Of a stretch of DNA of 64,000 nt, positions 58,648 to 61,746 are shown in pieces. Source of the stretch: Candidatus Gastranaerophilales bacterium (GTDB lineage: Bacteria > Cyanobacteriota > Vampirovibrionia > Gastranaerophilales > Gastranaerophilaceae); assembly GCA_944323045.1 (NCBI GenBank), contig CALUQX010000006.1, forward strand, positions 1 through 64,000, written 5' to 3'. Position 1 is the stretch's first letter, and the number at the start of each line of letters is the position of its first letter. A program made the position numbers and the translations under genes. The notes beneath the pieces were generated by a model. That model was not told the origin of the DNA, made no database searches, and saw only the letters and a program-made list of their open reading frames with translations.

Positions 58648-58974
58648 CTAGAGTATGCTTTTTATTGCAAGGTTTATTGTTTCAAGTTTATCTGCATTAT
58701 TTTTTATTAGTTCAAGATTTGAGAGGATACTGTTGTATATTTTTTCAGGTTCTTTGTTGTCGTCAGTATCAAATAGTTCTGCGGCAGTGACATTAAGCAC
58801 ATCTGTAAGTTTTTCAAGGGTTCTTGCGGATACAAACCCTCTGCCTGTTTCAATCAAACTCAACGATTTGATTTCTACTCCAAGTAATTCCGCTAAACGG
58901 TCTTGAGTCAGTCCTTTAGCTTTTCTAATCCGCTTAATATTATTGCCAAGTGTTTTACAAATACGATTTTGCAT
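58648..58974 (-). CDS. XRE-family HTH regulator
   Basis: 108 residues. N-terminal Cro/cI domain (LGNNIKRIRKAKGLTQDRLA, then LLGVEIKSLSLIETGRGFVS) and a C-terminal helical tail that may dimerise. AGGAGT precedes the ATG. It faces the pseudopilin gene at 59099 across 124 bases that contain repeated GTTAAC-type sites, and probably binds there. Its end converges on rpsG. Confidence 0.9.
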   Translation of the reverse strand: MQNRICKTLGNNIKRIRKAKGLTQDRLAELLGVEIKSLSLIETGRGFVSARTLEKLTDVLNVTAAELFDTDDNKEPEKIYNSILSNLELIKNNADKLETINLAIKSIL

Positions 58975-59098: not shown

Positions 59099-59791
59099 AT
59101 GTCAAGAAAATTTAACGCTTTTACACTTGCTGAAGTACTTATAACCCTTGCAATTATAGGGATTGTAGCAGCATTGACCATCCCAAATCTCATCCACTCC
59201 TACAAGAAAAAAGTCGTAGAAACTAAATTGCTGAAATTTTACACAGTTATGAATGAGGCTATACGCCGCTCTGAAATTGACAACGGCGATAAAAAGAACT
59301 GGAATTTTCCTACAAATCAGTGGGCAGACAGCAAAGAAGAATTTTATAATAAATATTTCAATAATTATATAAAAAGTGATAAAAGAATAAAGGACGAAGA
59401 CGAATACAATGTCTATTTTACTGACGGCTCAGCAATGCTAATTAGACACAGAGCGACAGACTATATCTACTGTATAGATGCTAAATATTTGAAAGAACAT
59501 GAAAAATATACCGCAAGTAAATGTTTTAGATTCGGTTTTTATCCAACTGGCACCGATCCTGATATTGAATATTCACACAAAAATTACCTGGATAAGGGAC
59601 TTGAACCATATGTGTCAAATTTGCATTACGTTGCTGACGGCGATTCTCTAACCGCCGAATGTGTCAAAGATGATAATGATGAATGCGTGTATCTTGAAGA
59701 AAAGGATTTATATACCAATAAACTCTACGCAACTAAAATAATCCAGCTAAATAACTGGAAAATTCCTGATGACTATCCGTGGAAACTTTAA
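59099..59791 (+). CDS. Pseudopilin / type IV prepilin-like protein
   Basis: 230 residues. MSRKFNAFTLAEVLITLAII is a prepilin N-terminus (cleavage before F, Glu+5), followed by SYKKKVVETKLLKFY and NGDKKNWNF, which are nearly the same as in the gene at 37248. The C-terminus LNNWKIPDDYPWKL is also shared. Middle is Asp/Tyr/Lys-rich. GGAGG precedes the ATG. Probably a minor pilin or pseudopilin. Stop overlap TTAA with the convergent gene. Confidence 0.88.
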   Translation: MSRKFNAFTLAEVLITLAIIGIVAALTIPNLIHSYKKKVVETKLLKFYTVMNEAIRRSEIDNGDKKNWNFPTNQWADSKEEFYNKYFNNYIKSDKRIKDEDEYNVYFTDGSAMLIRHRATDYIYCIDAKYLKEHEKYTASKCFRFGFYPTGTDPDIEYSHKNYLDKGLEPYVSNLHYVADGDSLTAECVKDDNDECVYLEEKDLYTNKLYATKIIQLNNWKIPDDYPWKL

Positions 59792-61389
59792 CCCAATATT
59801 CTATCAAGATCCTCGCGGGCAGAAGTCATATTATTTATGCTGTACAACTTTTTGAATGCATCAAGCGTTGTCGGATTCATTATTGTCGGAAGACAGTTTG
59901 ACATATAAATATTTTTTGCCCCGCGCCTGTGAAGTCTTATCATGCCTGCAAAAGCTGCATTGTCACAACGCGTTAAAAAGAATGTTACATTCGGGCTGTC
60001 AACAGGTATAATGTCAAATAGGCGTGTTAAAAGCATAGTGACAAGTGTATAATCATTAGCGACATTCAATGTAAATATATTTTCTCCTGCTCTTGAATAT
60101 GAAAATGTCAAGACAACAGAGTCCGGTGGCAATGCTCTGTAAAACTCACCAAAATATGATTCCAGAGAATTTGTAGGATTAGAGAGTCCGACTATAAACA
60201 AATGCTTATATTTTCCATCCGTCAGACCTGTTGATATATCGTTAAATAGTTTTTCAATTTTATCCCAACTGAACCCGATTATTGCAGACTTTCGGCTCTG
60301 ACCGCGCGTAAACCCTTTTGTAGTAAGTGCTCCTTCTATAAGCGGTTCCAGATTGCGGGCATCCAGTTTTGCTATACCTTTTGGCGGAATATCATCAGTC
60401 GTAAATATTCTGCCGCGATAGAGATATTCAACATTGTGTGCTTCATTTTTAGTAAGCAGTATTGCGCCCGGAAATGTTGCAAAATCGAGAACAGAAGTTT
60501 CTACCCCATTGCCAAAGTGCCCTTTAAGATTCTTATAATCTGAGAATACAGAATAAGCATGCGCAATGAGAAGATTTCCATTGGTATAGACATCAATTTC
60601 TTTATCATTAACAGTCTCCAGAACATCTTTTAACTCAGAAAGATTATTTCCTGAAACAAGAATGGCTTTTCCGGGTGTCGTTGACTGCGAAACCTCTTTT
60701 TCTATAATCTCACCGAATTTTTCTACCTTGACTTCATTTAATCGTTTCATAAGTTCTGCACACAGGTCTGATATTTCATATATTGAAGATTTAATTTTTT
60801 CTTCATCAAGTTTTTGTTGATTATATAGATTTAATGCACGTATAATTTCATTATTGGCGCTATCAATACAAATTCCGTTATCGTTAAGTTCCTGTATAAG
60901 CATGGCAAGTGATTTTAGTACAGAGAACAAAATTTCTGCATAATTTTTCACCTGCTTATTTTGCCCCTTATATTTGTTCTTAAATGCTTTATCACCTTCT
61001 CTTATAAGTTTATTTAATTCAGTATTATTTGAAAACTTAATTGGCGGGTTGAATTTGTCAAAATTCATGCCGCGTTCATCGCATATTGATTTATAAAGGC
61101 GCTCAGTGTTAATAAAATTTGAGAATATGTTATTAATAATTTTTAGCATCTGCTCATCGTTATACTCTTGAAGTGAGGACAAATATACAAGATTATACGC
61201 CATATCCAATTTAATCCTGTCATTTTTAGCCCCGAGAAGCTCCAGTTTAACCACATAATAAGCAAGCGCCCTGAGCATCACAAACATAACTTCCTGTAAT
61301 GCTGTAATATCCGGTGAAATTGAACAGACGCCTCTGGATACACATGTGTTGTAATCATTTTGACTTTGCTTAAAATTATTATAAAACAT
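59788..61389 (-). CDS. Hcp (hybrid cluster protein)-like pseudoenzyme
   Basis: 533 residues aligning by eye with hydroxylamine reductase/Hcp along the whole length: CVSRGVCSISPDITALQEVM (start domain), ILVSGNNLSELKDVLE, DVYTNGNLLIAHAYSVF, FATFPGAILLTKNEAH, RIFTTDD, FIVGLSNPTNSLESYFGEFY and GAKNIYMSNCLP. The residues that hold the hybrid Fe-S-O cluster are replaced: His (SGHD) by Asn248, Glu (GEML) by Asn272, Cys (TNC) by Glu316, Cys (GGCDG) by Ser403, Cys (ACGK) by Tyr431. Only two Cys of the first cluster site remain. So it cannot have normal Hcp activity. Glutaredoxin gene is 6 bases upstream. Confidence 0.75.
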   Translation of the reverse strand: MFYNNFKQSQNDYNTCVSRGVCSISPDITALQEVMFVMLRALAYYVVKLELLGAKNDRIKLDMAYNLVYLSSLQEYNDEQMLKIINNIFSNFINTERLYKSICDERGMNFDKFNPPIKFSNNTELNKLIREGDKAFKNKYKGQNKQVKNYAEILFSVLKSLAMLIQELNDNGICIDSANNEIIRALNLYNQQKLDEEKIKSSIYEISDLCAELMKRLNEVKVEKFGEIIEKEVSQSTTPGKAILVSGNNLSELKDVLETVNDKEIDVYTNGNLLIAHAYSVFSDYKNLKGHFGNGVETSVLDFATFPGAILLTKNEAHNVEYLYRGRIFTTDDIPPKGIAKLDARNLEPLIEGALTTKGFTRGQSRKSAIIGFSWDKIEKLFNDISTGLTDGKYKHLFIVGLSNPTNSLESYFGEFYRALPPDSVVLTFSYSRAGENIFTLNVANDYTLVTMLLTRLFDIIPVDSPNVTFFLTRCDNAAFAGMIRLHRRGAKNIYMSNCLPTIMNPTTLDAFKKLYSINNMTSAREDLDRILG

Positions 61390-61395
61390 TTCTAC

Positions 61396-61626
61396 CTACT
61401 TTTCTTTACTAACATAATTAATAATTTCGTCAGACTCATACATTGAAATATTGTTATCCGTATCATACAAAAACGGCACCTGTTCCCTGCCTCCTAGCTC
61501 TATTAATTTATCAAGATTACTACCTTCGCGTATATTTTTCTTTGTATACGGAATATTGTTTTCATCCATATAGTGCATAACTTTTAGTGAATATGGACAT
61601 GTCTCCAAAATATATAATTCATACAT
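61396..61626 (-). CDS. Glutaredoxin-like protein (monothiol CPYS)
   Basis: 76 residues from ATG 61626, chosen because AGGAG precedes it. MYELYILETCPYSLKVMHYM has a CPYS active site, REQVPFLYD supplies the cis-proline, and YESDEIINYV the C-terminal helix. The second active-site Cys is Ser, as in monothiol glutaredoxins. Directly precedes the Hcp-like gene, so the two likely function together. Confidence 0.88.
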   Translation of the reverse strand: MYELYILETCPYSLKVMHYMDENNIPYTKKNIREGSNLDKLIELGGREQVPFLYDTDNNISMYESDEIINYVSKEK

Positions 61627-61746
61627 TGTTAGCGCTCCTTTCATACCTGTATTATAGATATTCATTGAAGAATTTAATTGCCCGACATGTCAATTTTATA
61701 AGGTATATAATTGCATCTTAAATATTTTTATATTAAAGTTAAAGCT

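Follow-up and report, generated by a model that had tools for sequence, protein, structure and literature searches.

A putatively cluster-free homologue of the hybrid cluster protein, encoded next to a glutaredoxin gene in Candidatus Gastranaerophilales

Can a protein keep the fold of the hybrid cluster protein (Hcp) after giving up the metal clusters of that family, and what might it then do? The question is raised by two adjacent genes in the window that we analyzed, a stretch of 64,000 nucleotides at the start of contig CALUQX010000006.1 from a Candidatus Gastranaerophilales bacterium. Its family consists of gut bacteria with kinship to the cyanobacteria, and canonical Hcp is a protein that handles nitric oxide. 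A preliminary description of this DNA had seen in one of them an Hcp homologue with its cluster ligands lost and in the other a monothiol glutaredoxin, and had suggested that the pair serves a changed redox or sensing role. The two open reading frames are as follows:

59788 to 61389, minus strand: full-length Hcp-like open reading frame of 533 amino acids, here named dHcp (cluster-less Hcp homologue)
61396 to 61626, minus strand: glutaredoxin-like open reading frame of 76 amino acids, Grx2-N/GST_N type, active site CPYS

The glutaredoxin-like frame lies upstream, separated from dHcp by a gap of 6 nucleotides, and is presumed to be the first gene of a two-gene operon. Its 76-amino-acid form is preceded by a good ribosome-binding site (AAAGGAG), and an alternative in-frame start is possible upstream, at 61665. 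dHcp is the sole Prismane protein in the genome from which the window comes, which has no canonical Hcp. On the other side of the locus, a type IV pilin-like protein (FTLAEVLITLAIIGIVAALTIPNLI) is encoded at window positions 59099-59791 on the plus strand, convergent to the dHcp gene. The pilin-like gene occurs at the dHcp locus in some relatives only and was thus apparently inserted between rpsG and the dHcp gene. It is adjoined by a gene for a small HTH/XRE regulator (58648-58974, minus strand), and a similar XRE gene sits directly upstream of dHcp at locus L064.

The Hcp fold signatures that had been noticed throughout the protein were confirmed by profile searches and by structure prediction. 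dHcp matches the Pfam Prismane family with an E value of 3e-29, and its residues 1-532 align to positions 1-522 of the TIGR01703 hydroxylamine reductase model with 214.9 bits, below the curated equivalog cut-off of 360.8 bits. The Hcps of known structure 8cnr, 7de4, and 1gn9 match its sequence with E values of 1e-24 to 1e-29, and a profile-profile comparison of 33 dHcp relatives with ten canonical Hcps gave an E value of 4.9e-80. Judged by these alignments, the homology between dHcp and Hcp is beyond chance. An AlphaFold model, built from five sequences and with a mean pLDDT of 69.9 (domain 2 being poor), had Hcp structures as its best Foldseek matches, and VIA-align gave it a Z score of 22.9 to 1e1d, with Hcps at ∼20 to 23 versus ∼16 for carbon monoxide dehydrogenases (CODHs).

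The hybrid cluster of Hcp has seven ligands (one His, two Glu, and four Cys), and the [4Fe-4S] cluster is bound by four N-terminal Cys. We aligned dHcp with the E. coli Hcp of the K-12 genome, using its numbering for what we take, from established knowledge of Hcp structures, to be the canonical ligand residues. All seven hybrid-cluster ligands are replaced in dHcp. The five substitutions reported in the preliminary description fall exactly on ligand columns, with Asn248 at H249, Asn272 at E273, Glu316 at C317, Ser403 at C405, and Tyr431 at C433, and two more are added by A444 at C458 and by the conservative D476 at E492; A478 stands at the K494 column. The two first-cluster cysteines said to remain are indeed there, C16 and C22 matching cluster-1 Cys18 and Cys25, and Cys3 and Cys6 are absent, which leaves two of the four [4Fe-4S] cysteines missing. 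Profile-profile alignment assigned the hybrid-cluster ligands to the same residues of dHcp and showed that the loop from ligand C433 to ligand C458 is shortened. Misalignment as a source of the apparent loss was ruled out, since the two independent alignments agree and this ligand loop is shortened.

The same columns were read across the clade, and the canonical ligand set is retained in none of the 94 dHcps. Former ligand positions vary among members (S/N/T/Q at 248, S/E/F/A at 316, and S/L/D at 403), and core residues of domain 2, such as G247, Y268, H277, D302, F306, R325, and G338, are conserved. Loss of the cluster ligands in dHcp is thus well supported by the alignments. As a description of the protein, however, it holds for the hybrid cluster, whose ligands are all replaced, and not for every cysteine, as C16 and C22 were kept and C103, C475, and C499 were gained. 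dHcp could still have a redox or metal role through cysteines other than the canonical ligands.

In the tree, a branch supported at 100/100 separates the dHcp clade from the rest, and the ligand columns divide canonical proteins, which have all ligands, from this clade, in which none retains the set. A scan of genome contigs gave only four close relatives, all from Candidatus Gastranaerophilales, and an Hcp-type match was found in 53 of 59 related genomes. In a phylum-wide draw, 64 of the 65 genomes that belong to the window's family had dHcp, and outside the family it occurred nowhere at family-level scores, matches elsewhere scoring like canonical Hcp. An order-wide draw was concordant, with dHcp in most genomes and only more divergent members in some genera. 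Canonical Hcp, judged by score, occurs in about a third of the same 65 family genomes. Viral copies of dHcp were looked for and none were found.

The dHcp reading frames are open throughout. The closest gene pair has a dN of 0.016 and a dS of 0.14, and it is on this pair that the dN/dS reading rests, the remaining pairs being saturated at synonymous sites; purifying selection on dHcp is well supported by sequence. A pseudogene or an assembly error was ruled out by the presence of the gene in many genomes together with dN/dS. dHcp nevertheless evolves fast, with long branches in the tree. Two genera carry tandem copies, two and three in number (L051:429-3688 and L053:6620-11485), with diverging cysteine patterns. 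At L094:5142-6713 a canonical hcp is split by a stop codon and the genome, G013, has an intact dHcp elsewhere; the canonical gene is apparently being lost there while the paralogue stays.

Five cysteines stand out among the 94 dHcps, and their codons in the window are as follows:

61324 to 61344, minus strand: segment (CVSRGVC) with the retained cluster-1 cysteines C16 and C22, kept in 84 and 86 of 94
61081 to 61083, minus strand: C103, new in dHcps, present in 87 of 94; the position is not conserved in canonical Hcp
59965 to 59967, minus strand: C475, new, adjacent to the column of the former ligand Glu492, present in 90 of 94
59893 to 59895, minus strand: C499, new in dHcps, present in 90 of 94

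C475 and C499, which stand where canonical Hcp has Tyr/Phe and Thr, are jointly present or jointly absent in all 94 proteins (phi = 1.0). The four proteins without them form two lineages, L054/L062 and L065/L192, and the joint loss is therefore counted on two events only. C16 and C22 were lost together in six dHcps that keep C475/C499 and C103, and singly in others; one dHcp has lost C475/C499 with C16/C22 kept, and five have lost C103 alone. Three deeper-branching members also carry C16, C22, C475, and C499, and the ancestral conserved set appears to have consisted of these four. The C-terminal domain of the dHcp model contains a β-α-β unit (strand 468-472, helix 477-488, and strand 494-496), with C475 and C499 each three residues past one of its strands. 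This topology, taken from DSSP on a model with a mean pLDDT of 69.9, would place C475 near C499 and beside the former Glu492 ligand position.

The pairing with a glutaredoxin gene is a real feature of the clade, as such a gene lies directly upstream of dHcp at 64 of 94 loci, the other 30 having no adjacent one. A search of the surrounding 1.5 kb with the same profiles detected no glutaredoxin at any of 22 canonical, 5 semi-degenerate, and 3 divergent hcp loci. The window's protein matches GST_N_3 (PF13417) with an E value of 1.6e-12 and Glutaredoxin (PF00462) with an E value of 2.2e-7, the latter at 31.4 bits versus a curated cut-off of 22.9, and the Grx4 family TIGR00365 is absent from its matches at E values up to 0.1. 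At most linked loci the partner is of the same type as in the window, with a Grx2-N/GST_N-like domain standing alone, and at six (L060, L065, L189, L190, L192, and L193) it is of another subfamily, Grx3-like. The two types are found at the same position relative to dHcp in separate branches of its clade, which suggests a functional link between dHcp and glutaredoxin that arose twice. The Grx2-N-like gene is also found unlinked in some genomes.

The term monothiol did not survive as a property of the system. Dithiol active sites, mostly CPYC, are found in 53 of the 64 partners, CPYS in 11, including the window's type, and the CGFS class of monothiol glutaredoxins in none, and the CPYS form of the window thus reads as a local, lineage-specific change. 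The sublineage L065/L192 keeps the upstream glutaredoxin and has lost C16, C103, C475, and C499, so that the partner does not strictly require those four cysteines; C16 and C22 are also absent in most dHcps with Grx3-like neighbors. The genome of the window further encodes a thioredoxin reductase, a GCS2 (glutamate-cysteine ligase family) protein, and a second, Grx3-like glutaredoxin. Given the reductase and the ligase-family protein, a glutathione/glutaredoxin system can plausibly run in this organism.

dHcp can be set against several known systems. Class I/II Hcp/prismane proteins (D. vulgaris 1e1d, M. thermolithotrophicus 8cnr, and E. coli 7de4) are like it in full-length homology and in the three-domain fold; dHcp differs from them in having neither the hybrid-cluster ligands nor two of the four [4Fe-4S] cysteines, in the new C103, C475, and C499, and in the neighboring gene, a glutaredoxin where E. 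coli hcp has that for an NADH reductase (hcr). CODH-V of Carboxydothermus hydrogenoformans and other altered-motif Ni-CODHs belong to the same superfamily and have changed active-site residues or function (PMC10502027, PMC6344411). CODH-V, however, retains a hybrid-type cluster (PMC10502027), and Ni-CODHs, rare exceptions apart, conserve the cysteines of the B-cluster as well as three C-terminal cysteines of the C-cluster (PMC6344411), whereas dHcp has no comparable set left. Glutaredoxin 2 resembles the window's partner in its N-terminal domain, the partner matching PF13417 and the N-terminal third of GrxB/PRK10387, but the partner is a stand-alone protein of 76 amino acids without the GST-like C-terminal domain and with the site CPYS. 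A survey of 1,476 hcp genes lists FeS proteins, regulators, and oxidoreductases as neighbors, and the word glutaredoxin occurs nowhere in its text (PMC13056359). In the open-access papers searched, we found no description of a cluster-free Hcp; we also found no literature joining Gastranaerophilales with Hcp.

Forms with only some of the ligands replaced occur elsewhere in the order, at these loci:

L068:800-2446, L076:5145-6800, L077:5721-7376, L081:4951-6600, and L087:5072-6712: partly degenerate Hcp paralogues from sister families, with differing ligand subsets left

All five have some ligands replaced and, unlike dHcp, have neither C475/C499 nor a glutaredoxin neighbor. Of the hybrid-cluster ligands, the His, two Cys, and one Glu are missing from the L068 protein, which retains others and all four cysteines of cluster 1. 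Two genomes, G046 and G049, have canonical Hcp alongside a partly degenerate one. With canonical Hcps as the root, the tree has the look of a duplication followed by ligand loss in steps, with a branch order that is weakly supported (81/56).

The reading that we tentatively favor, at a little under an even chance, is that dHcp is a cluster-free paralogue with the Hcp fold that works through its cysteines with the glutaredoxin as partner. It would have kept the three-domain fold and given up both metal clusters. C475 and C499, on the former hybrid-cluster ligand side, would form a reversible dithiol/disulfide or, alternatively, become modified with an adduct (glutathionyl, nitrosyl, or persulfide), and the neighboring glutaredoxin would reduce or exchange the disulfide or adduct, with C16/C22 as a possible second redox pair. 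The most likely role, as far as the sequences suggest, would be to relay or sense redox state through thiols in a gut bacterium that lives anaerobically. A role in NO, hydroxylamine, or S-nitrosylation is possible, with ancestry and the name of the ancestral family as its sole basis. We infer the thiol mechanism from sequence, and the L065/L192 sublineage speaks against it.

The main chemical rival is that dHcp holds a new metal site, in which C16, C22, C475, and C499 (and C103 in most members) would bind either an Fe-S cluster or some other metal in the region between the places where the two clusters used to be; the glutaredoxin might deliver or mend this cofactor. The apparent ancestral set numbers four, as is usual for Fe-S, and is common to the deepest branch, and the Hcp fold already has two clusters within electron-transfer distance (PMC10502027). 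We nevertheless consider such a site quite unlikely, because the two pairs are lost independently of each other, 16/22 in six proteins and 475/499 in one, which would be incompatible with one site built from four cysteines, and because C103 is dispensed with alone in five. The other serious rival, rather unlikely in our estimate, makes dHcp a pseudoenzyme, a non-catalytic scaffold or regulator whose Hcp surface binds a partner or ligand and whose structural cysteines are maintained by the glutaredoxin. It would account for the varied cavity residues at 248, 316, and 403, which leave no new conserved active site there, for the conserved domain-2 core, and for L065/L192, which do without most of the conserved cysteines; the strict coupling of C475 with C499 and the repeated glutaredoxin neighbor point instead to redox chemistry. 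Lost ligands and fast evolution are also what a functionless, decaying hcp remnant would display, but the gene is present in nearly every genome of the family, its frames are open over their full length, selection on it is purifying, and it has new cysteines that are conserved, all of which make that reading very improbable. That the role of the protein has changed, as had been proposed, is implied by the conservation of the clade.

If the thiol-based reading is followed to its end, an ancient metal-cluster enzyme may have been rebuilt here into a cluster-free, cysteine-based one, with glutaredoxin replacing the clusters and the flavin reductase and with a distribution more universal than that of the original; we regard this as possible, though doubtful. 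It is by their metal clusters that Hcp and CODH are defined, and the literature we found describes altered ligands and no member with all of them lost. New in the dHcp clade are its own conserved cysteines, C103 and the coupled C475/C499, and the recurrent glutaredoxin adjacency. For annotation, dHcp genes should not be called hydroxylamine reductases. A clade-wide, selected, cluster-free Hcp would be a natural experiment in which a metal cofactor is replaced by thiol chemistry. It would separate the role of the scaffold from that of the cluster and may help to resolve the debate over what Hcp does physiologically.
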